DNA from: Providencia sneebia DSM 19967
Lineage (GTDB): Bacteria > Pseudomonadota > Gammaproteobacteria > Enterobacterales > Enterobacteriaceae
DNA: 64,000 nucleotides
Reading direction: 5' to 3'
Assembly: GCF_000314895.2 (NCBI RefSeq)
Contig: NZ_CM001773.1
Location: 3,638,028-3,702,027 of the forward strand
In this document: positions 25,299 through 37,415 of the stretch, in pieces
Numbering within the stretch: the stretch's first letter is position 1
Layout of the letters: each line of letters begins with the position of its first letter
The notes under the pieces: model-generated
Told to the model about the DNA's origin: nothing
The model's database searches: none
The model's input: the letters and a program-made list of their open reading frames with translations, nothing else
Position numbers and translations under genes: made by a program

Positions 25299-26042
25299 AT
25301 GAAACTAACATTTAAACTACACAAAACAGTCATTATTGTTATCTGTGTTGCACTTATCGCCTTATTAATGCAGGGCGTTTCCTATTTAGGTCATAGCCAA
25401 AACCAGAATAGAGTTGAGCAATTTAAACAGTTAACTCGCGTATTAGCCGAACAAGTTGCTTTCAGCTTATCTGATTATATTAGTTCAGGCAGCAAAGATT
25501 TTAATCATGAACGAATTATTGCTAACCTGAATAACCTCGCAAAAGATAAATATATTTTAGATGCGGGCATTTATTCAGCTAGTGGTACATTAATCGCATC
25601 ATCTGGAGAAGCCGTTCCAGTTCGCCAACGATTAGCGATTGATAACAATCAATCTGTACAACCTTTTCAATATCAATTAGTTGTTCCAATTCCTGGTCAA
25701 GAGGAGCCTACTGGCTATCTCCGTCTAACAATTGATACCGAATTGTTAGCGACTGAACTCCAACAAGCTGATAATAGTACAAATGTTCTAAGAATATTTA
25801 TTTTATTAGCGCTTTGTATAGGATTTATGCTGGCAAATACATTATTCCGATTGAAGAAAAAGAAAGGACAGCATTTACCTCCACCATTAGTTGTGGGAGA
25901 AGACACTAATGATGAAGAGGAAGAACCAAAAAAAGTGAAGAAAAATGCGATTAATAAACGAAAAGTGGATAATCCGCCTTATCATCCAAAGAAGAAGCGG
26001 CCAAAAAGTAAATCAAATAAAACACCACCTCAAGACCACTAA
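25299..26042 (+). CDS. smp: Membrane protein Smp (YtjB)
   Basis: Smp (YtjB) is an inner-membrane protein of unknown role, encoded divergently from serB in enterics. The 247-residue product has a membrane segment at about residues 9-30, a periplasmic domain with QNRVEQFKQLTRVLAEQVAF, and a second membrane segment near 164-184. A long Lys- and Pro-rich cytoplasmic tail follows (KKKKGQHLPPP to the end). The tail is rich in KKxK runs and probably disordered. Confidence 0.9.
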   Translation: MKLTFKLHKTVIIVICVALIALLMQGVSYLGHSQNQNRVEQFKQLTRVLAEQVAFSLSDYISSGSKDFNHERIIANLNNLAKDKYILDAGIYSASGTLIASSGEAVPVRQRLAIDNNQSVQPFQYQLVVPIPGQEEPTGYLRLTIDTELLATELQQADNSTNVLRIFILLALCIGFMLANTLFRLKKKKGQHLPPPLVVGEDTNDEEEEPKKVKKNAINKRKVDNPPYHPKKKRPKSKSNKTPPQDH

Positions 26043-26111: not shown

Positions 26112-26892
26112 TTAAATAAAAGTGGTATCAAAAACAATCGGGGCGACAAACTCCACTTTGCCTTCCACTAATAACGTTTCAGGTGGTGCAGGAAAAGGGG
26201 CTGCTCGTTGAATAGTGGCAATAGCCTCTTTGTCTAACACTTTAGTGCCTGAAGAATTAATTAAACTTGCTGCAATGACTTGCCCTTTACTATCCACCGT
26301 CACTTTTACTTGAGATACACCAGTTGAGCGATAACGCAATGCAGCTCTCGGGTAGCGTTTTGCCTTAGCTAAGCGTTGATGTATTTCACTGTGCCAACTT
26401 TGTTGACCACTCATCGCTGCGGAGGCACTGCTTGAAAAGTTAGCGCTGCTGTTTGATGAACTTCCCGAAACAGGCGTAGATGTAACCGCAGATTCTTGTG
26501 TATTTAATGGCGCATCTTCTATCACTTTTTTAACTTGAGGCGGTTTCTTTTTTGGTGGTGTTTTTCTTTCACTCACCTTAGTCAAAGTGCCATTATCAAC
26601 CAGTGGTGTATTGGGTAATTTTCTTTTTTTCAACAAGATCAGGCAATACTTCATCATAAGTTGCCATTTGCTGTTTTGGAGCATGGTTTATTTCTGGCTC
26701 GGATTGTTGCTCAAGCTGATAAATACCTAATTGAAGAGATATCGCAGGCGGCAATACACCTGTTTTCGACTGATGTACAGAAAACCAGCCAATAAAAATT
26801 GCAACAAGCATTCCATGGAAAAATAGACTTAAAAATAAACCGCCCAATGGACGGAAAATCGGGCGCACAATTTGGCCCGTAATACTGCTCAT
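26112..26892 (-). pseudogene. TonB-like energy transducer, frameshifted
   Basis: TonB proteins transmit inner-membrane energy to outer-membrane receptors. The N-terminal frame (ATG 26892; GTGAGGCAG ribosome site) encodes a membrane anchor, GGLFLSLFFHGMLVAIFIGW, with the SxxxH motif (S22, H26). The frame then stops at ITQYTTG. A second frame carries the Lys/Pro-rich linker (ERKTPPKKKPPQVKK) and a complete TonB C-terminal domain: YPRAALRYRSTGVSQVKVTV, then KVLDKEAIATIQRAAPFPAP. The frames meet at seven A (26624-26630); six A would join them as DLVEKRKLPNTP. This could be a real mutation, slippage-dependent expression or a sequencing error. It diverges from the sigma-factor gene and likely serves the 28704-31469 receptor, as FusB does for FusA. 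Confidence 0.8.
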
Positions 26893-26941
26893 ATTCTGCC
26901 TCACGACTTTATTTTTTGCGAATTATAGGCATAATACAAAC

Positions 26942-26960
26942 AAAAATGATATTCATTATT
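26942..26960. promoter_or_regulatory. Fur-box-like site between the tonB-like and sigma-factor genes
   Basis: AAAAATGATATTCATTATT matches the 19-bp Fur consensus GATAATGATAATCATTATC at 15 positions. It lies in the 167-bp divergent control region, so iron-loaded Fur could repress both directions. Confidence 0.7.
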
Positions 26961-26970
26961 ATTAATAAGA

Positions 26971-26984
26971 TTGATAATAATCAA
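26971..26984. promoter_or_regulatory. FNR-box match next to the Fur site
   Basis: TTGATAATAATCAA fits the FNR consensus TTGAT-N4-ATCAA at all ten fixed positions. It lies 10 bp from the Fur-like site in the same divergent promoter region. It may instead be part of an extended Fur site. Confidence 0.5.
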
Positions 26985-27059
26985 ACAACTGATTGAATTA
27001 TAATTAGAAAAAAATATCGAGCAATAAATCATAACTTTACACTTTGACACCAGCGAAAA

Positions 27060-27599
27060 ATGACTATTGATAAATCCCTTGCTCGCAAAATTAGCGGCGC
27101 ATATCAGTCAACTTATAGCCAACTTGTCCGATTTTTCCGCAATCGGCTAGGTGATAGCAACGATGCTGATGATTTATCACAGGATGTGTTTACACTATGG
27201 CTAAACCGTAAAGAGCAATCTCCTGTGAAAGAGAGCCGAGCTTATTTGTTCAAGATTGCTAATCATGTGCTTATTGACCATTGGCGGCGTAATCAACGTC
27301 TGGCAAAATCAGAATCAACACTTGATGACAGTCAGCTTGAGCACAATTTCGAAAGCACTCAAAGCGATCCTAGTGAAATCCTTGAGCAGCAACAGCGTGT
27401 GCAACATTTAAGTGAAGCCATTGAATCTTTACCACCAAGGCGAAGAGAAGCATTTTTACTTTACCGATTTGATGGATTGTCACAGAGTGAAATAGCCGAA
27501 CGAATGGAAATTTCGATCAGTATGGTTGAAAAGCATATTGCTGCCGCATTAGTACACTGTAAACACTATTTAGATAATCAGAGCAATAATAATCAATGA
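27060..27599 (+). CDS. FecI-type ECF sigma factor
   Basis: This 179-residue group IV sigma factor has region 2 at about residues 14-80 (FFRNRLGDSNDADDLSQDVF) and region 4 at about 120-170 (LPPRRREAFLLYRFDGLSQS, then EIAERMEISISMVEKHI). This is the FecI class that transcribes receptor genes after a surface signal. Its stop overlaps the next start as ATGA (27596-27599), so it is translationally coupled to the FecR-type gene. Fur- and FNR-like sites lie upstream. The ribosome site is weak (cagcgaaaa). Confidence 0.92.
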   Translation: MTIDKSLARKISGAYQSTYSQLVRFFRNRLGDSNDADDLSQDVFTLWLNRKEQSPVKESRAYLFKIANHVLIDHWRRNQRLAKSESTLDDSQLEHNFESTQSDPSEILEQQQRVQHLSEAIESLPPRRREAFLLYRFDGLSQSEIAERMEISISMVEKHIAAALVHCKHYLDNQSNNNQ

Positions 27600-28582
27600 C
27601 ACACGCAGCCCCACCAGAGACAGAGACACTAGAAACGATTGATGAAGTCGCCGCACTTTGGTTTATGCGCCAACATAGCCAAAATATGAGTGCTGAGCAA
27701 TCGCAACAATTTGTACACTGGTTGCAGGAATCACCTGAACATGCCAAAGCTTATGAAGCTATTGCAGGTGTATGGCGTGACTTTGATTTAATGCCAAAAC
27801 CACAATTGAACACGTCTTCACAAAAAAAACGCTTTTTTTTTCGACTCTGGCGACCACTGGGTAATACTTTAGCGGCTTTTTCCATTGTTGCATTACTTGT
27901 CCTTCCGTACAGCCATCTGCCATTAATGCTGTTCAATAATATGACGCTTGCAGCAACAAATATGCCTAAAGAAGTGACGTTGTCTGATGGCTCGAAATTA
28001 TTTCTAAATCACCATACCCGCATCCGAGTGGCTTATAAAACGGATGTACGCCAAGTCTACCTTGATGAAGGAAGTGCTTATTTTAAAGTCGCGCCCAATC
28101 CTTACCGACCCTTTATTATTCAAGCTGACCAACGCAAAATCCAAGTGGTGGGAACAGAATTTGAAGTGGAAAAAGATCAACAACAAATCGCAGTTCAAGT
28201 AAGTCAAGGGATTGTGAGTTTTCAATCCGGCAACGAACAGAAAATAAACTATCTGTTTGCAGGTGATAGTGCAGTGAGCCATGCGGTTAATGGCAAAGTA
28301 ATATTGAATAAAATCTCACCATTAGATGTCGCAAGATGGCGTTTTGGTGAGCTTAGTTTTACCGATAAACCATTAGGCGATGTTCTTAAGGAACTCAAAA
28401 ATTACTCTTCCGCACAAATAGAGCTTTCACCACCATCTCTGAGTCAACGTAAAATCTCAGGTAGGATCAATTTACAGCAGCCTGATCAGTTTTTCCAAGC
28501 ATTACCGATGCTTTTGCCTGTTGAAGTGATCTATCATGACAAAAATAATATATTGATTATTAACAATAAAAAAAATAAATGA
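27596..28582 (+). CDS. FecR-type sigma regulator (transmembrane anti-sigma)
   Basis: FecR proteins hold or activate the FecI sigma factor and read the state of the outer-membrane receptor. The 328-residue product has an N-terminal cytoplasmic domain with the DUF4880-type motif ALWFMRQHSQNMSAEQSQQF, one membrane segment (about 88-110: GNTLAAFSIVALLVLPYSHL), and a periplasmic FecR domain (VTLSDGSKLFLNHHTRIRV to KVAPNPYRPFIIQ). The C-terminal DUF4974-like domain includes RWRFGELSFTDKPLGDVLKE. It overlaps the sigma gene by 4 bp. The signal probably passes from the STN domain of the receptor encoded next. Confidence 0.92.
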   Translation: MTHAAPPETETLETIDEVAALWFMRQHSQNMSAEQSQQFVHWLQESPEHAKAYEAIAGVWRDFDLMPKPQLNTSSQKKRFFFRLWRPLGNTLAAFSIVALLVLPYSHLPLMLFNNMTLAATNMPKEVTLSDGSKLFLNHHTRIRVAYKTDVRQVYLDEGSAYFKVAPNPYRPFIIQADQRKIQVVGTEFEVEKDQQQIAVQVSQGIVSFQSGNEQKINYLFAGDSAVSHAVNGKVILNKISPLDVARWRFGELSFTDKPLGDVLKELKNYSSAQIELSPPSLSQRKISGRINLQQPDQFFQALPMLLPVEVIYHDKNNILIINNKKNK

Positions 28583-28602
28583 AAATTATTTCGATTTACA
28601 GG

Positions 28603-28617
28603 TGAGGATAATTCTCA
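28603..28617. promoter_or_regulatory. Fur-box-like site upstream of the receptor gene
   Basis: TGAGGATAATTCTCA matches the 7-1-7 Fur palindrome TGATAAT-N-ATTATCA at 11 of 14 fixed positions and is itself largely symmetrical. It suggests that the receptor has its own iron-repressed promoter in addition to the sigma-factor input. Confidence 0.6.
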
Positions 28618-28627
28618 TTTAACCCTC

Positions 28628-28691
28628 TTCTTAAGCAGTTGTTATTTATTTGGCTATTTTTTTACTTTTGATGCCATTGAATGCTTAAGAA
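28628..28691. repeat. 10-bp inverted repeat spanning the receptor leader
   Basis: TTCTTAAGCA (28628-28637) recurs as TGCTTAAGAA (28682-28691). The right arm touches the likely ribosome site AAGGGAT, 13 bp before the ATG at 28704. It could be a protein-binding site or an mRNA stem affecting translation. Confidence 0.5.
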
Positions 28692-28703
28692 TAAGGGATA
28701 CTC

Positions 28704-31469
28704 ATGTCAATTCGATTTACTCACAAGCCGTTCAAGCCACTTGTCCTGTTTGTGGCGATTAATAGTGCGATAATTTGTCAATCTGCGGCGGCACAAGAAG
28801 TGTCTTTCACACTTCCTGAACAATCACTTGCTTCATCAGTGGCGCAAATCAGTCAACAAGCACAGATTCAATTGCTTTATGATAAAAGTCAGCTTAATGG
28901 CTTACAAGCCCCTGCACTCTCAGGTCACTACACCGCACAAACCGCATTACAAAAAATATTGATTGGTAGCGGTTTAGAATTAGTCAATGAGAATGGCGTC
29001 TTTGTTATTCGTCAGCAAAATCTCAATCAAGGAACTTTAGTCTTGCCAGAAACTCAGGTTTCCGGTGTGCTACAAAACCATCCTGCAACTGATGCTATTT
29101 CAGCACCACAATATGTCACTTCAGAAGAGATCAGCCAGCGAAATACAGGTGATGGCAATATCACCGATTTGATGAAAACTAACCCTGCGGTTCAATTTGC
29201 TAATAATGACAGCAACTCCATGAACCAAGGAGAAATAAAACCTTCTCGTATTTCAATTCATGGTTCAAATAGCTATCAAAATGCTTATCGCCTTGATGGT
29301 ATCAGTTTTAATAATGATTTTGACCCTGCGGATAATGGGCTTGGTGAAACCAATACACGCCTCAGCAGCAGCGATCAAGGGATTTACATTGATAGCCGCC
29401 TTATCGACAGCATGACGGTGTATGACAATAATATTCCAGTTGAATTTGGGGGCTTTACGGGGGGAACAGTTGAAGTTAATAGCCGCCGCTGGCAAGGGGA
29501 AAATAGTGCTCACGCCTATTATCGTTTAACCCGTTCTGGCTGGAATAACCTATTTCATGATTCTACTCAAGGCATTGATACCACAAAAAATGACACCTCG
29601 AACCCCGCTCGTTTTCAAAACCGTTATGATAAAAGTGACTTTGGTGGTTGGTTTGAGTTAGGCGTTAGTGAAAACTCAGGGTTGGTTTTCTCTGCCTCAC
29701 GTCGTAGCTCAACGATCCCAATGACTTTAGCGAGTGATGGCGGAGCTTTCATCAATGATGAAGGGCAGCTTGATACGACAGAAGGCATTAATGGTAAAAA
29801 AGATCAAAAAAGAACATCTGATAACTATTTCCTAAAATATACCATTGATCTTTCAGATAAAAGCTCTTTTGATTTGTCCGCCAACTATGCCAATTATGAT
29901 AGCCGTCTATTTTCTTCAACTATCATGAATTCTGGCTATGATAGCACGCATAAAGGTTTAGGTTTTACAGGTGTTTTCAAGCATAAATATGATATTGGTG
30001 ATTTGGAATTAACAGCAAGCACCCAACAGCTTAAAGATGAACGTTCTAATGACCAAAATTATTTTGTCGACGTTCTTGCGATGTCACCTGATTATGATTG
30101 GGAAAAACGTAAATACTTACGCAGTGGTGGCCAAGGGGATTTAATTTCTGAACAAAATAGCCAAACTGCAAAAGCTGTAATGCGATTTACAACCATGGAA
30201 GATGGATTAGGCATTACACATAACCCAACAATTGGTAGCGAAGTCAGCTACACCAAAGGGACTTATAAACGAGATAAAGATTTTTATCGTTATAACTATT
30301 CTGGCGTGCTCGATAAGAATGATTATTGGACAGGTCAGTTAAATAACGTCACACGCTTCCAAGCTGGTAACCATTCTGCGGATTACACCAACTATTCTCT
30401 ATTTGCTGACGATAACCTCAAATACGGTAAGTTGACGCTGCGTCCCGGTGTAAGACTTGATCGCGATGATTTCGTCAATAGAACCAATATTGCCCCACGG
30501 TTATCAGGTTCTTACGATGTGTTTGGTGACAATAGCACCTTATTGATTGCCGGTGCAAACCGCTACTATGGTCGTTCCATGTTGACTTATGCTCTATATG
30601 GTGCACAAAACGCTGGCATGCAAAACTGCAACTTTTTCTGTTCTCTTGACCCAAATGAAAATGAGTGGGATAACAAAAAAGATTACGAAGGTATCGATTC
30701 TCTTAAAACACCTTACAATGATGAGCTAACGCTGGCATTACAACAAGAAATTCTGTCAACTACTTGGCGTCTGCAATATGTTCATCGTGAAGGCTATGAT
30801 GAAGTCAGATCACGCACTAAATACAATAGTCGTGAGGAAGATAAACGCAGTATCCGTATGTATGATAACGGCGGTCGCAGTTCACACGATACCGTTACAC
30901 TTTCTGTCAAAAATAGTCAGCCTTGGGAATGGGCAGAAGCTAACCATATGATGAACGCATCACTGACATGGCAACAAAGTGAAAGTAATACGCCGAAAGA
31001 TACGGGTTATAACTCTTATGATTCAAGCAATAATGTGAATCTAAATAAAGTTTGGTATGACGGCAAATTTATTGATGCATCTAAACTACCATCGACTAGC
31101 TTCAACTCGCCATTTAAATTGAATTTAGAGCTGACCAGTGTTTGGGATGAATACAACATCACTTGGTATAACCGCTTACAATGGTGGGGAGCGCGTGACC
31201 AAGCCGTTCGTTATGATAACGCCTATGCTGTTTCACCTGAATATGGTCAAGTTCGCAAATACACCAAACAGCATTTCGCCAGCAAATATACACTGGATAC
31301 TCGCCTGGGTTGGAAACCCGAGTTTGCACATGGATTCGGTGTCTCTATTGAAGTGAATAACCTCTTAAATAATAAAAACGTGGCAGATCGCTTTGTCTTC
31401 GAAGATAGCGTCCTGAAATCTTATGACCCAGGTCGACAATTCTGGCTACAAGTTAATTACGATCTATAG
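28704..31469 (+). CDS. TonB-dependent outer-membrane receptor with STN signalling domain
   Basis: The 921-residue receptor has a signal peptide (about 1-30, ending SAAA) and an N-terminal STN domain (about 32-105: VSFTLPEQSLASSVAQISQQ and GHYTAQTALQKILIGSGLEL). A plug domain follows (about 128-260: IHGSNSYQNAYRLDGISF), then a 22-strand-type barrel ending in QFWLQVNYDL. The STN domain marks it as a transducer that signals to FecR. The next genes encode a YddA-like ABC protein and a PqqL-like protease, so it is the YddB/FusA counterpart, and its ligand may be an iron protein. The ligand cannot be read from sequence. Confidence 0.92.
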   Translation: MSIRFTHKPFKPLVLFVAINSAIICQSAAAQEVSFTLPEQSLASSVAQISQQAQIQLLYDKSQLNGLQAPALSGHYTAQTALQKILIGSGLELVNENGVFVIRQQNLNQGTLVLPETQVSGVLQNHPATDAISAPQYVTSEEISQRNTGDGNITDLMKTNPAVQFANNDSNSMNQGEIKPSRISIHGSNSYQNAYRLDGISFNNDFDPADNGLGETNTRLSSSDQGIYIDSRLIDSMTVYDNNIPVEFGGFTGGTVEVNSRRWQGENSAHAYYRLTRSGWNNLFHDSTQGIDTTKNDTSNPARFQNRYDKSDFGGWFELGVSENSGLVFSASRRSSTIPMTLASDGGAFINDEGQLDTTEGINGKKDQKRTSDNYFLKYTIDLSDKSSFDLSANYANYDSRLFSSTIMNSGYDSTHKGLGFTGVFKHKYDIGDLELTASTQQLKDERSNDQNYFVDVLAMSPDYDWEKRKYLRSGGQGDLISEQNSQTAKAVMRFTTMEDGLGITHNPTIGSEVSYTKGTYKRDKDFYRYNYSGVLDKNDYWTGQLNNVTRFQAGNHSADYTNYSLFADDNLKYGKLTLRPGVRLDRDDFVNRTNIAPRLSGSYDVFGDNSTLLIAGANRYYGRSMLTYALYGAQNAGMQNCNFFCSLDPNENEWDNKKDYEGIDSLKTPYNDELTLALQQEILSTTWRLQYVHREGYDEVRSRTKYNSREEDKRSIRMYDNGGRSSHDTVTLSVKNSQPWEWAEANHMMNASLTWQQSESNTPKDTGYNSYDSSNNVNLNKVWYDGKFIDASKLPSTSFNSPFKLNLELTSVWDEYNITWYNRLQWWGARDQAVRYDNAYAVSPEYGQVRKYTKQHFASKYTLDTRLGWKPEFAHGFGVSIEVNNLLNNKNVADRFVFEDSVLKSYDPGRQFWLQVNYDL

Positions 31470-31523
31470 CGTTTACATTAGAAAGCAATGTGAGTTAGTC
31501 ACAATAACAATACGAAGAACGTC

Positions 31524-33230
31524 ATGAAGACATTGAAACAATTTTTTTATTTAGTAAAACCATTTTGGGGGCAGCGTGCTGCCCTTTTCTGCTGGATTTT
31601 ACTTGCGTCATCACTAGGGTTAACACTGTCATCCGTCTGGTTCAACGTTAAAATGAACATGTGGAATGGTGACTTTTATAATGCACTACAAAAATTAGAT
31701 GGGCAGGCGCTTTACAGCCTGCTGCAATACTTTGTCATCTTGGTGAGTGGTTTGATTTTTGTTGTCGTAATGGGTAACTACCTAAAACAAATGCTGATTA
31801 TTCGTTGGCGTAAAGGCATGACAGAGTTAGTGCTTGGGCGTTGGCTATCATTAAACAGCAAACACTATATGTTACGACTGACGTCACAAGAACCTGATAA
31901 CCCTGACCAACGTATTGCAGAAGATATTCGACTATTAATTGAGTCCACGCTCACCTTATTAGTCACTTTCTTACATTCCATGCTAACTCTTATCTCCTTT
32001 GCCACTATTTTATGGACACTTTCTGGCAGCCTCTCTTTTAACTTAATGAATAGTGATTGGACAGTTCCGGGTTATATGTTTTGGGCATGTATTATTTATA
32101 CAATTATTGGTATTGCGCTAACACAATGGATTGGTTTCCCATTACGCCGTTTACATATGGATAAACAGCATCGTGAAGCTGACTACCGTAGCTCGCTAAT
32201 TAATTGCCGCCAACATGGTGATGCAATTGCTGGGCAGCGTGGTGAAGTTCAAGATAAGAAAGAACTCATGCAACGTTTTGGCGCGATTATCCGCAATTGG
32301 AATCACCTCATTCGCTGTGAACGAAACTTATCATTTTATACGGTGGGTTACCAACAAGTTACTGCTTTAGCCCCCGTATTATTAGCACTGCCTAAATTCC
32401 TTGCAGGCGAAATTATGCTAGGCGGTTTGATGCAATTACGCCAAGCTTTTAGCAGTGTTGCGACATCACTAGGCTGGTTTATTTTTGCATATAAAGAAAT
32501 AGCCGCTTGGCAAGCTACCGTTTCTCGTCTCTATAATTTTGTGATTTTATTAGAGAATGACAAACCTGCTGATGTCACTATTACAGAAGAACCTCCGCTT
32601 TTAAATGCTGAATTAAAAATTATGACAGCAGATAACCGCATTCTTATTGATTCAATCAATATAACCGCAAAACAAGGTGAGCTAACGCTAATTTCTGGCC
32701 GTTCAGGGATTGGTAAATCTACATTGCTACGCGCGCTTAGTGGGCACTGGCCATTCTTTAATGGCAAAATTGAACGTACAGATAATCTAATATGGTTGCC
32801 ACAACGTTTGTATCTGCCAGTAAGTCGCTTAGATAATTTATTGGCTTATCCTCAAGATCCTGCACAATTTAGCGAAAATGATTTCAAAGATGTGCTCAGT
32901 AAAGTTGGCTTGGATAAACTCCATTATCAATTAACGTTAGAAACAGATTGGAATAACCGATTATCCGGTGGTGAACAGCAACGCATTATGTTTGCTCGTT
33001 TATTACTCAATCGCCCTAAATTACTGCTACTGGATGAAACAACTTCTGCACTTGATGAAAATAGTGCTATTGAGCTTATCCAATTGCTCAAACATGAACT
33101 GCACGACAGTGCAATTATCCTCGTCAGCCATCAACTCTTTCTGTCATCACTTGCCGAGCATCAACTCCCTCTTTTTGACGTCGTGGCTCCCACTAAGGCA
33201 ACAATAGGAACGCCTGAATATGCTTCGTAA
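31524..33230 (+). CDS. YddA-type ABC transporter (SbmA/BacA fold fused to ATPase)
   Basis: The 568-residue inner-membrane protein has an N-terminal SbmA/BacA-like membrane domain with about six helices (FYLVKPFWGQRAALFCWILL onward) and a C-terminal ATPase. Walker A is GRSGIGKST (near 400), the signature is LSGGEQQR, and Walker B is LLLLDE. Length and layout match E. coli YddA (about 560) and FusD of the ferredoxin uptake system. It follows the receptor by 54 bp with no terminator and overlaps the protease gene by 11 bp. A likely role is moving peptides or cofactor released by the protease; the substrate is inferred. Confidence 0.9.
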   Translation: MKTLKQFFYLVKPFWGQRAALFCWILLASSLGLTLSSVWFNVKMNMWNGDFYNALQKLDGQALYSLLQYFVILVSGLIFVVVMGNYLKQMLIIRWRKGMTELVLGRWLSLNSKHYMLRLTSQEPDNPDQRIAEDIRLLIESTLTLLVTFLHSMLTLISFATILWTLSGSLSFNLMNSDWTVPGYMFWACIIYTIIGIALTQWIGFPLRRLHMDKQHREADYRSSLINCRQHGDAIAGQRGEVQDKKELMQRFGAIIRNWNHLIRCERNLSFYTVGYQQVTALAPVLLALPKFLAGEIMLGGLMQLRQAFSSVATSLGWFIFAYKEIAAWQATVSRLYNFVILLENDKPADVTITEEPPLLNAELKIMTADNRILIDSINITAKQGELTLISGRSGIGKSTLLRALSGHWPFFNGKIERTDNLIWLPQRLYLPVSRLDNLLAYPQDPAQFSENDFKDVLSKVGLDKLHYQLTLETDWNNRLSGGEQQRIMFARLLLNRPKLLLLDETTSALDENSAIELIQLLKHELHDSAIILVSHQLFLSSLAEHQLPLFDVVAPTKATIGTPEYAS

Positions 33231-36009
33231 AATTACCTTTACCCTTTTTGTCGGCCTAATCATAAGCGGCTGTGCAAAAAATCCAGCAAACAGTTCGAAT
33301 GGACAAGTATTACTGCCAACTCGTTCAGACCTTCAATATTACCAACTTGATAATGGTTTACAGGTCTATCTTCTACAGCGTAATCAGCCCGGTGTAGAGC
33401 TACGTTTATTAGTGAAAAGTGGCTCAATACAAGAAAATGAACAACAACTTGGTCTTGCTCATTTCACTGAACATATGGCATTTAAAGGGACTAAACATTT
33501 TCCTGGTACGACGGGATTTAAACAACTTGAACAACAAGGTTTAAAATTAGGTAGCCATGTTAATGCCATCACAAGTTTAAACTCGACGTTGTACAAACTT
33601 TCTTTACCAGAAGCCACACCAGCTCAAATCACGACGGGGTTACAAGTTATCGCTGATTGGGCTTCTAATATGACGTTTGACCAAGATGCTTTTGAAAAAG
33701 AGCGCCCTGTCATTATAGAAGAGTGGCGTTTACGCCAAGGTATGGGCTATCGAATCAATGATAGCTTAGAAAAATTGCGCTATCACGGTAGCCGTTATGC
33801 AGAACGAAACCCAATTGGTTCACTGGATATCGTTCGCCAAGCACCTATTGAACAAGCAAAAAATTATTATCAAACTTGGTACCAACCCCAGCGGATGACA
33901 TTATTAGTGATTGGTGATTTTAACCAATCATCAGTGCGCAAAGAAGTTGATGCCTTGTTTACTGCACCAAAACCGCAAATCCCCTCTTTAGATAATCCGC
34001 AATGGCAAAAGTTTGCAGATACAAACGCCATGTTAGTACAACCCATCTTTGATAAAGAGCAAGGCGCGCGGTTTATTCAATTTGCGCTACAAAAAGATGT
34101 TGCTGCGCCACTCAATACTCGCCAAGGACAATATGATGATTTAATGGATAGTTTATGGCTTGCCATTTTAAATCAGCGTTTTACTGCTTTGGTCGATAAT
34201 GGTGTCCTGCCGGCAATTAGTATCAATGAACAAGGTTCAATGCTAGATAACCGCAGGTTACAGCAACTGATGATTATTCATCCTAAAGGTGATGATTATA
34301 AAAATGCCACAACGGTTCTCTTTACAGAACTACAGCGATTAGCCACAGAGCCAGTAACTCAACAAGAGCTTGATGCTGCACGACAAGCTATGTTGAAAAA
34401 ATTCAGTCAGCAAGCCGCAACCGAACAGCGTTATGCCAATGATTATCTTGCAGGTCAACTCACTACCGCATTGGAATATGACATGCCATTGTGGAATAAA
34501 CGCCAACAATTAGATAATAGCTACCAATTAATTGGCAAAGTAAAGCCTCATGATTTACAACAACATGTCTCTACATTTTTAGCTAAAGCATCACCCCGTC
34601 TTGCATTGATTGGCCCTGATACTGATGCTGCTGGGGTTAATGCAGATACCTTCCGCCAGCAATGGCAAAATATTCGTACCACATCTCCCGGGCCATTTAC
34701 ATTACAAACCCAAACAATCACACTGCAATTAGCAAAACAGCCAAGCGGTTCTATTATTGAACAAAAAGCCATTCCGGTTGCTAAAACTGAACGTTGGGCA
34801 CTCAGTAACGGCATTCAAGTTATTGTCAAAGCAGATAAAAATTTAAAAGAAGATATTCAATTTAACCTACAGCTACCGGGTGGGCGCTCACTTGAGACAC
34901 AACAAACTGCAGGTCTAACAGATTGGGCATTAAAGCTTCCTGAAAGCAGTGGTTATGGTGAATATAATGCACGTGATTTGGCGCTACTTGCCAAACAAAA
35001 TCAAATCTCTATTCGCCCTTATAGTGAATTATTAACACACGGTTTTCGTGGTAAAACCCCCGTTGATAATCTAGAAACCGCATTGCAATTGCTGCACTTA
35101 AAACTTACCGCACCACAATTTAGTGGTGAAAAGCTAGAACAACAGAAACAATCATTTGCTTTGAATCTTTCTAAAACGCCAGTTGAGCGCACTTTCCTAG
35201 ATAATATCAACAAAGAAAGCTATCAAAATGGTGAGTTATTAGTCGTCAATCCACAAGGCAGCTGGCAGAATTTTACAGCTGGACAATTACAGCAAGCGAA
35301 TCGCCAATTATTGACGTCAACAGCAGATATGACGCTAGTCATTAGTGGTGCGCTCAATACTCGAGACTTAAAACCGCTGTTAGAACAATGGATCGCCACA
35401 ATTCCTGCACGTAATCAACAACTTACTTGGCGTAACCAAGGCATTATGCCGAAAATGGTTTCTTTGAATAAACATTATCCTATCAGCAGCAGTGATAAGA
35501 GCATGGTCAGTATTCAATATGCGGCACCTGCCCAATGGACACAGCAACAGCAATTAGGAATCCAATTATTAGATACTATCATTAGCCAGAGATTGCGTGG
35601 TGAGTTACGAGAAAAAGCCAGTGGTATTTATGCATTAGGTTTTTCACAAATGTTAGCGAAAAAACCGCAACCTTATTATTATGCGCGGCTTAATTTCACC
35701 ACAGCACCACAACGTGCAGAAGAGATGACTCAGATTGCGCAAAAAACAATTGCCCAAATCCAACAATCTGGCATCAACCAAAAAGAGCTGACTGAAGCGA
35801 AAAATATCTGGCTAACAGAAAATGCTCAAGTTGTTGATAGTTCTGGATATTGGACAGAAGCACTAATGCAAATCGCCTCCGACGATCAACAGTATCAACG
35901 CCTAACACAGGAACCAGCTATTATTCGCCAACTTACAGTTGATGATATCAATCGTTTGGCTCATCAATATTTAGGACAAAATCCAAAAATATTTATGATG
36001 ACGCCTTAA
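33220..36009 (+). CDS. PqqL/FusC-like M16 zinc metalloprotease lipoprotein
   Basis: The 929-residue protein has two M16 halves. The active half carries the inverted zinc motif HFTEH (H81, E84, H85), with the third ligand around E167/E168 in VIIEEWRLRQG. The C-terminal half (from about 520) is an inactive M16 domain. A signal sequence with lipobox LIISGC (C18) predicts a membrane-anchored periplasmic enzyme. Length matches E. coli PqqL (931). FusC, the Pectobacterium homologue, digests imported ferredoxin. It is last in the operon and overlaps the ABC gene, so it probably digests the protein imported by the receptor. Confidence 0.92.
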   Translation: MLRKITFTLFVGLIISGCAKNPANSSNGQVLLPTRSDLQYYQLDNGLQVYLLQRNQPGVELRLLVKSGSIQENEQQLGLAHFTEHMAFKGTKHFPGTTGFKQLEQQGLKLGSHVNAITSLNSTLYKLSLPEATPAQITTGLQVIADWASNMTFDQDAFEKERPVIIEEWRLRQGMGYRINDSLEKLRYHGSRYAERNPIGSLDIVRQAPIEQAKNYYQTWYQPQRMTLLVIGDFNQSSVRKEVDALFTAPKPQIPSLDNPQWQKFADTNAMLVQPIFDKEQGARFIQFALQKDVAAPLNTRQGQYDDLMDSLWLAILNQRFTALVDNGVLPAISINEQGSMLDNRRLQQLMIIHPKGDDYKNATTVLFTELQRLATEPVTQQELDAARQAMLKKFSQQAATEQRYANDYLAGQLTTALEYDMPLWNKRQQLDNSYQLIGKVKPHDLQQHVSTFLAKASPRLALIGPDTDAAGVNADTFRQQWQNIRTTSPGPFTLQTQTITLQLAKQPSGSIIEQKAIPVAKTERWALSNGIQVIVKADKNLKEDIQFNLQLPGGRSLETQQTAGLTDWALKLPESSGYGEYNARDLALLAKQNQISIRPYSELLTHGFRGKTPVDNLETALQLLHLKLTAPQFSGEKLEQQKQSFALNLSKTPVERTFLDNINKESYQNGELLVVNPQGSWQNFTAGQLQQANRQLLTSTADMTLVISGALNTRDLKPLLEQWIATIPARNQQLTWRNQGIMPKMVSLNKHYPISSSDKSMVSIQYAAPAQWTQQQQLGIQLLDTIISQRLRGELREKASGIYALGFSQMLAKKPQPYYYARLNFTTAPQRAEEMTQIAQKTIAQIQQSGINQKELTEAKNIWLTENAQVVDSSGYWTEALMQIASDDQQYQRLTQEPAIIRQLTVDDINRLAHQYLGQNPKIFMMTP

Positions 36010-36020
36010 ACATCATTATT

Positions 36021-36042
36021 GGGAGCTACGGCTCCCTTTTTA
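36021..36042 (+). terminator. Terminator ending the receptor-ABC-protease operon
   Basis: GGGAGC-TACG-GCTCCC (36021-36036) is followed by TTTTT on the plus strand, 11 bp after the protease stop codon. It is a compact, strong rho-independent terminator. Confidence 0.9.
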
Positions 36043-36698: not shown

Positions 36699-37415
36699 TT
36701 ATTTGTCACCTAATAAAACTGAATCTAATGCGATTTCAATCATTTCATTAAATGTCGTTTGGCGTTCAGCTGAAGTGGTTTGTTCACCTGTTTTGATATG
36801 ATCAGAAACAGTACAAATAGTCAGAGCACGAGCACCGAACTCAGCAGCAACCCCGTAGATACCCGCCGCTTCCATCTCAACACCAAGAATGCCGTACTTT
36901 TCCATCACATTAAACATATCAGGTTCTGGGGAATAGAACAGATCAGCAGAGAATAGGTTACCAACACGAACATTAACGCCTTTCGCTTTTGCAGCTTCCA
37001 CAGCATTATGCACGAGATCATAATCAGCAATTGCAGCAAAATCATGACCTTTAAAACGTTGGCGGTTAACATTTGAATCGGTGCAAGCCCCCATACCAAT
37101 CACGACATCACGCAGTTTAACATCATCCATTACTGCACCACATGAACCTACACGAATGATAACTTTCACACCAAAATCAGTAATCAGCTCTTTCGCATAA
37201 ATAGAGCAAGATGGGATCCCCATTCCATGTCCCATAACAGAGATCTTACGGCCTTTATAAGTTCCCGTAAAACCTAACATTCCACGCACATTATTCACTT
37301 GGCGTACGTCTTGAAGGAATGTTTCTGCAATATATTTTGCGCGCAGCGGGTCGCCCGGCATCAATACGACGTCAGCGAAATCACCCATTTCTGCATTAAT
37401 ATGTGGAGTTGCCAT
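36699..37415 (-). CDS. deoD: Purine nucleoside phosphorylase DeoD
   Basis: DeoD cleaves purine (deoxy)nucleosides with phosphate to give the base and (deoxy)ribose-1-phosphate. The 238-residue hexamer-type enzyme starts [20 protein letters not shown], with phosphate residues in MPGDPLRAK and the purine-site motif EMEAAGIYG followed by the catalytic aspartate in [10 protein letters not shown]. It is the last gene of deoCABD. A 160-bp gap with a stem-loop separates it from deoB, so it may have its own promoter. Confidence 0.97.

Follow-up and report, generated by a model that had tools for sequence, protein, structure and literature searches.

The window analysed here is a stretch of 64,000 nucleotides from contig NZ_CM001773.1 of Providencia sneebia DSM 19967, and all coordinates refer to it. 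It contains a six-gene locus (26112-36009) that combines the parts of a protease-associated protein importer with those of a sigma/anti-sigma signalling circuit. Genes were called from a list of open reading frames (ORFs) together with family scans of the window proteins. A TonB-like energiser gene (26112..26904) lies on the minus strand, and its start is divergent from that of a gene for an extracytoplasmic function (ECF) sigma factor (27060..27599), which is the first of five genes on the plus strand. It is followed by a gene for a FecR-type transmembrane anti-sigma regulator (27596..28582; FecR 3e-19, DUF4880 2e-11) and by the gene for a TonB-dependent receptor of 921 amino acids with STN, Plug and barrel parts (28704..31469). 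The STN signalling domain occupies receptor residues 55-104 (28866..29015; PF07660, 39.8 bits with a cut-off of 28.4). Next are the genes for a YddA-like protein, in which the family scan recognises an SbmA/BacA-type membrane domain and an ABC ATPase (31524..33230), and for a PqqL/FusC-like M16 protease (33220..36009), the latter beginning before the ABC gene has ended. The protease carries a lipobox with Cys18 (33271-33273) and an HFTEH site at residues 81-85 (33460-33474), both re-read from the sequence. The original prediction for this locus had named six genes of one system. Its five plus-strand genes stand, with the FecR-type regulator, the STN-domain receptor, the YddA-like ABC protein and the PqqL-like protease with intact HFTEH and lipobox all as described, and the TonB-like gene departs from it in not being one open frame here.

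The receptor belongs, by its sequence, to the FusA/YddB importer family. It matches YddB (2e-87) and FusA (1e-67) over both plug and barrel, and the remaining PDB receptors align with it within residues 26-139 only. Foldseek ranks YddB first (E 7e-68) and FusA second (7e-63), followed by FpvA (1e-32). Grouping with siderophore receptors had been named in advance as an outcome that would tell against the prediction, and this assignment was rejected, since plug and barrel fall in the FusA/YddB family by sequence and by Foldseek. Among the NCBIfam models of siderophore and heme receptors none gave a barrel-wide match; only the FecA model aligned, over residues 15-166, with 36 bits and a cut-off of 1100. 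The protease is a two-half M16 enzyme of the FusC/PqqL kind that adjoins the receptor and ABC genes. Its best solved relatives are 9ldy (1e-73), PqqL (5e-60) and 6brs (1e-49), the last of which we take to be FusC. The prediction had also named an inactive protease as a point against it; the HxxEH zinc motif is intact.

The operon is found in all 24 Providencia genomes examined. A search of 60 genomes, its own included, recovered a full-length receptor in all 23 other members of the genus; the G005 copy is split in two, and that of G004 contains an in-frame stop. The order tonB-sigma-FecR-receptor-ABC-M16, adjoining smp and serB, is the same in 23 of 23 same-genus genomes, with single genes broken in some, and chance gene grouping is excluded because of this. 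The 36 genomes searched from outside the genus gave no near relative and two weak partial matches, and in a class-wide sample of 369 genomes four others match at 1e-12. A search of genome contigs with a 20-member receptor alignment gave 61 loci (L056-L116), several of which are genomes already in the 60-genome search. The six genes are also found in Proteus, Yersinia, Serratia, Symbiopectobacterium, Citrobacter JGM124, Klebsiella BIGb0407 and a Cedecea bin, with no serB or smp in the fetched flanks of these loci. The set recurs in Morganella, where five loci have deoD in the fetched flanks. Within the 61 loci, deoD lies in the fetched stretch of all 12 from Providencia; it is not always there for the 23 relatives.

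The three importer genes travel together. The ABC and M16 genes accompany the receptor in 13 of 13 loci without an STN domain (STN-minus) and in 46 of 47 with one (STN-plus). The ABC gene is kept with receptor and protease in 59 of the 60 loci L056-L115, L115 being the one that has no ABC gene. The M16 protein has HxxEH and a downstream EEWR in all 60. The lipobox is not a family trait, as no clear lipobox is seen in the copies from Yersinia (L087, L103) and Gilliamella (L092, L109, L112).

The signalling genes follow the STN domain. The loci were scored with purpose-built profiles after three of the 61 were left out (L068 and L105, which run into contig ends, and the fragment L116). Over the remaining 58, ECF and FecR genes lie in the fetched flanks of 46 of 46 STN-plus receptors and of 0 of 12 STN-minus receptors. 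The STN-minus loci, from Gilliamella, Frischella, Vibrio, Shewanella, Moritella and Sutterella, keep receptor, ABC and M16 genes. The E. coli yddA-yddB-pqqL stretch (L119) and a Pantoea stretch (L120) gave no STN, ECF or FecR match, and the fetched stretches around the distant FusA-like receptors L121-L123 and L051 gave no match to the purpose-built STN, ECF, FecR, ABC or M16 profiles. A tree of plug and barrel was built by a quick method from 45 rows, leaving out 18 near-copies, three broken genes and L116; its long branches are L115, L053-L055, Pantoea and YddB. On its starred branches the STN domain changes three times, and the ECF gene follows in three of three independent pairs (40 rows). 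At the level of sequence, the signalling layer is thereby shown to be tied to the importer, with STN domain, sigma factor and anti-sigma factor gained or lost jointly.

The ECF sigma factor had been called FecI-type. It is an ECF sigma factor, and the FecI label was dropped: it scores 92 bits with the FecI equivalog NF041727 (cut-off 260), and orthology to FecI was rejected on this score and on 34% identity to E. coli FecI. The best model is PRK12527, at 123 bits (cut-off 162). The sigma factors of eight compared Enterobacterales loci are 54-79% alike. The sigma factors of two Pseudomonas loci, Halomonas and Janthinobacterium resemble these at 26-38% only, and E. coli FecI at 47-54%. With the NCBIfam models, the sigma factors of the window, Proteus and Yersinia score best with PRK12527 (122-127 bits). 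For three from the Pseudomonas, Halomonas and Janthinobacterium side the best models are those of FecI or PRK12528; their 187-204 bits exceed the cut-off of 184 for PRK12528 but in no case that of 260 for FecI. The FecR tree has the same two-way split. In the five Pseudomonas loci, the sigma and FecR genes lie downstream on the opposite strand. By this comparison there were at least two recruitments of the signalling circuit, since the Pseudomonas, Halomonas and Janthinobacterium versions draw on a different sigma lineage.

The nearest non-Fus set compared is a cassette (L128) on the Pseudomonas aeruginosa plasmid NZ_CP133752.1, at 47% for the sigma factor and 37% for FecR. It ranks top, apart from Proteus, among the plasmid records in a sigma search that matched 1581 of 72556 of them, and its receptor is annotated as a heme receptor. 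The two receptors match at 34% over residues 1-168, with nothing significant over the barrel. We take the L128 cassette to be HxuI/HxuR, from the receptor name in the record and the gene order, which is given for P. aeruginosa as hxuIRA (PMC8768829). Among the non-Fus sets compared, the Enterobacterales sigma/FecR cassette is nearest to this probable Hxu type and not to Fec. At 0.92 Mb (C1:920749-925040, or L127 4750-9041) the P. sneebia genome has a second ECF-FecR-STN receptor cassette, in which the receptor matches the heme/hemoglobin family model TIGR01785 with 542 bits.

The FecR protein of the operon has FecR and DUF4880 domains and a hydrophobic segment, the latter seen by eye in the alignment. 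The alignment of FecR copies places Gly186-Thr187 (28151..28156, plus strand) at what is presumably the self-cleavage site of the FecR family. A regular expression found the Gly-Thr motif in 41 of 47 copies, missing Pseudomonas L100-L102 and L113, the fragmented L093, and L115. The aligned L115 protein has Gly-Thr despite the miss, and Pseudomonas L114 has none at the aligned place, its match lying elsewhere.

An ECF-type promoter block, GTGAGGATAATTCTCATT-N5-CTCTTC, lies on the plus strand at 28602..28630, 5' of the receptor gene. Its general form is GTGAGGATAATTCTCATT followed at five bases by (C/G)TCTTC, and an 18-base part of it was scored in a whole-locus scan of the 61 loci. The block is present in 40 of 40 Enterobacterales loci, at 18/18 in 36 and at 16-17 in four of the five from Morganella; the other 21 loci score at most 15, and the upstream regions of 734 other ORFs, used as background, at most 14. 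In 38 of the 40 it is found upstream of the receptor at a distance of at most 250 bases; the block was missed there in L065 and L093, where broken receptor genes misplaced the start. It is a single site in the P. sneebia genome at up to three mismatches. A wider regulon of this sigma factor was rejected on that count, which a looser or different promoter would escape. The block is the predicted sigma-specific promoter of the receptor gene, and its recognition by this sigma factor is proposed. Operon layout, the single-site block and the all-or-none STN pattern over the 58 loci speak for a link in expression between receptor, ABC and protease genes, the absence of which had been listed beforehand as a point against the prediction. 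The five Pseudomonas copies (L100-L102, L113, L114) have by eye a common block of their own before the receptor, TTGTCCCTTT...GATC...GGCATA, which is perhaps the promoter of their Fec-like sigma factor.

A Fur-box-like site scoring 15/19 (26942..26960, without assigned strand) lies between the divergent tonB-like and sigma genes. Scores of at least 15/19 within 250 bases upstream of the sigma gene are found in 21 of 23 same-genus relatives and in 8 of the 734 background regions. Before the receptor, a Fur-like score of at least 14 is seen in 7 of the 13 loci that lack STN, two of the 7 being near-copies, and in 8 of the 47 that have it; the background count is 26 of 734. This contrast may be taken as a hint only.

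The TonB-like gene of this genome is read in two overlapping frames, an N-terminal part (26596-26904) and a TonB_C part (26112-26684), that switch near an A-run at about 26,625. It is a single frame of 263-270 codons in 22 of 23 same-genus relatives and is interrupted in L036 too; a family rule of two tonB frames was rejected on this count. The break may be a homopolymer or assembly error, or real decay. With the gene frame-broken in this genome sequence, the operon as read here shows no working FusB-like TonB partner of the kind found in Fus proper of Pectobacterium, and it is not filed as Fus proper. No TonB-like gene adjoins yddA-yddB-pqqL in E. coli, and the wider import class does not require one. 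Other genes of the operon are broken in single genomes, by sequencing error or by decay. The M16 gene is broken or split in P. stuartii NCTC11800 (L032/L057), the receptor in P. rettgeri RB151 (L050/L071) and P. rustigianii DSM 4541 (L040/L065), and FecR, receptor and M16 in Symbiopectobacterium endolongispinus (L093).

Protease-associated importers, a Providencia cluster included, were catalogued in 2019 (Grinter 2019, PMC6793856). That article describes FusC and PqqL as iron-dependent, and treats the cargo of Fus-like systems outside Pectobacterium, including E. coli YddB/PqqL, as an open question. The operon described here is like Fus and like E. coli YddA-YddB-PqqL in its FusA/YddB-type receptor, its M16 protease with intact zinc site and its SbmA-like ABC protein, and like Fus in having a TonB-like gene. 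It is unlike both in the STN domain of the receptor, the ECF sigma and FecR genes and the ECF-type block before the receptor gene. It shares with E. coli K-12 FecI-FecR-FecA the order sigma-FecR-receptor, the STN domain, the Gly-Thr site and, in the promoter block, a resemblance to the stretch upstream of fecA with its core AATAATTCTTATT. It differs from Fec in its sigma factor, far below the FecI cut-off, and in its receptor, which aligns with FecA over residues 22-93 only. A CGTCTTC element before the receptor is common to L128 and many Enterobacterales loci, whereas the receptor barrel of L128 is of heme/hemoglobin type and no M16 or SbmA-type gene is among the 13 features shown around it. 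In the Has system (HasI-HasS-HasR-HasB), an STN receptor senses a protein ligand and comes with its own sigma/anti-sigma pair and a TonB paralogue, and HasR takes up heme from a self-made hemophore. The present operon would share this design, with an STN receptor predicted to sense a protein, a sigma/anti-sigma pair of its own and a TonB-like gene, and HasR is among the PDB matches of the N-terminal part of its receptor. Unlike Has, it has no recognised hemophore-like or type I exporter gene among the ORFs and family scans of 26112-36009.

A search of open-access literature, with figures and supplements outside its scope, found no text that describes ECF/FecR signalling on a Fus/PqqL-type importer. 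The words FecI, FecR and STN do not occur in the main text of PMC6793856 as available, a mention in its Fig. 2 or S1 Table being possible, nor FecI or FecR in that of PMC6071955. The importer class is already published; on the signalling layer, its double origin and its promoter, the open texts searched gave nothing. For Morganella morganii KT, PMC3521468 lists the receptor MM1952 beside fecR MM1953 and the sigma gene MM1954. These three are perhaps part of the same operon type.

The locus is probably an operon for Fus-type protein import that is controlled by a cell-surface signalling circuit of its own, and the overall interpretation of the original prediction is supported to that extent. 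Its parts, their families and order, the promoter block and the way in which STN, sigma and anti-sigma come and go together are read from sequence. Protein import is predicted from family membership only, and from the same parts we infer digestion, ABC uptake of the products, induction by a ligand, iron control and the nature of that ligand. In the proposed working, low iron would release Fur from the intergenic region that separates the tonB-like gene from the sigma gene, and a little sigma factor, FecR and receptor would be made. A foreign protein would bind the outer face of the STN-bearing receptor. With energy from TonB, the STN domain would then signal to the FecR-type protein, and the ECF sigma factor would be freed. 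The freed sigma factor would read the block at 28602-28630, giving more receptor, ABC protein and protease. Once drawn into the periplasm, the cargo would be cleaved by the M16 lipoprotein. Its products would then enter the cell, peptides probably through the SbmA-type ABC protein, as would the iron of an iron-bearing cargo.

Several observations weigh against the reading of the locus as a self-signalling importer. The TonB-like gene is frame-broken in this genome, and Pseudomonas copies of FecR have no Gly-Thr motif. The Fur-like score is only 13/19 in the 11 Proteus loci of the set, 10-12 in L062, L064, L066 and L086 and 10-11 in two Providencia. Fisher's test of STN against ECF plus FecR gives 1e-12 and ignores relatedness, and with three independent pairs a sign test is too small to become significant. 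VIA-align Z-scores of the receptor with FusA (30.2) and YddB (28.7) are level with that for BtuB (28.9), and Z alone does not separate them; the residues covered are 720 for FusA and 700 for YddB versus 518 for BtuB. Additionally, a section heading in PMC6793856 states that E. coli PqqL and YddB do not support growth under iron limitation in LB, so that import by the Fus-type family outside Pectobacterium is as yet a prediction.

Other explanations divide on what is taken up. The protein could be food, scavenged for nitrogen or carbon and not for iron, with the M16 protease making peptides that the SbmA-type ABC protein imports. The SbmA/BacA membrane domain, in a gene kept in 59 of 60 loci, favours this, as does the fact that no siderophore or iron-permease gene was seen among the ORFs and family scans of 26112-36009. 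The Fur-like scores before the sigma gene in 21 of 23 relatives and before 7 of 13 STN-minus receptors point instead to iron control, as does the published description of FusC and PqqL as iron-dependent (in passages of PMC6793856), and we regard scavenging as rather unlikely. Alternatively, heme or another small iron compound could be taken from a host protein in the manner of Hxu, with the sigma circuit sensing the heme protein, the cofactor alone entering and the M16 and ABC proteins handling by-products or peptides. Of the sets compared, it is the cassette beside the heme-annotated receptor of L128 that comes nearest to the Enterobacterales sigma and FecR, and HxuIRA is described as signalling for heme taken from hemopexin (PMC8768829). 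Regulatory ancestry, however, says little on the ligand; plug and barrel are of the FusA/YddB family, no NCBIfam heme-receptor model matched, and the genome has at 0.92 Mb a separate heme/hemoglobin-type STN receptor with its own ECF and FecR. Heme uptake is judged quite unlikely.

That an ECF-FecR cassette merely came to lie beside a Fus-type operon with no functional tie is highly improbable. Related sigma factors are indeed common on plasmids, as the number of matching records shows. Against chance stand the STN domain in every usable locus with the cassette and in none without it, the conserved block between fecR and the receptor gene, and a second sigma lineage that does the same in Pseudomonas, Halomonas and Janthinobacterium.

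Across 22 Providencia sequences (L040 and L050 were not used), the mature receptor varies most in residues 321-560 (29664..30383, plus strand). Conservation is lowest, at 0.70-0.77, in the gaps 343-363, 450-479, 496-504 and 524-541 between predicted strands, most of which would face outward in the usual barrel layout. The patch of the P. sneebia receptor is nearer to rettgeri/vermicola-type receptors, while for serB, smp and the rest of the operon the closer match is a stuartii genome (its M16 gene in pieces), which gives the receptor a mosaic look. This pattern fits an exchange of ligand-binding surface between species. A fuller account can be offered tentatively, as a real possibility: the intact foreign protein may be both inducer and cargo, the circuit may have been acquired at least twice (Hxu-like in Enterobacterales, Fec-like in Pseudomonas, Halomonas and Janthinobacterium), and exchange of the patch may have tuned species to different proteins. 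With apparently a single promoter under its sigma factor, such an importer would report its own ligand, and the search for the cargo could become a reporter screen of protein extracts. With the operon in Providencia, Proteus, Morganella, Yersinia and Serratia, the answer would cover several gut and urinary-tract genera. A natural comparison is available in the same importer with and without signalling.

The operon lies, as originally described, between smp (25299-26042, recognised through PF10144) and deoD (36699-37415, recognised by eye from its translation). A terminator-like hairpin (36021..36036, plus strand) lies directly 3' of the protease gene as a consensus match; such matches number 8 in the window, with 10.4 expected in shuffles. 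A sigma-70 promoter scan of the window gave no excess (34 found versus 36.1 expected in shuffles). A metagenome protein of 1226 amino acids (P0108) has both M16 and Plug domains, and is either a fusion of receptor and protease or an assembly join.

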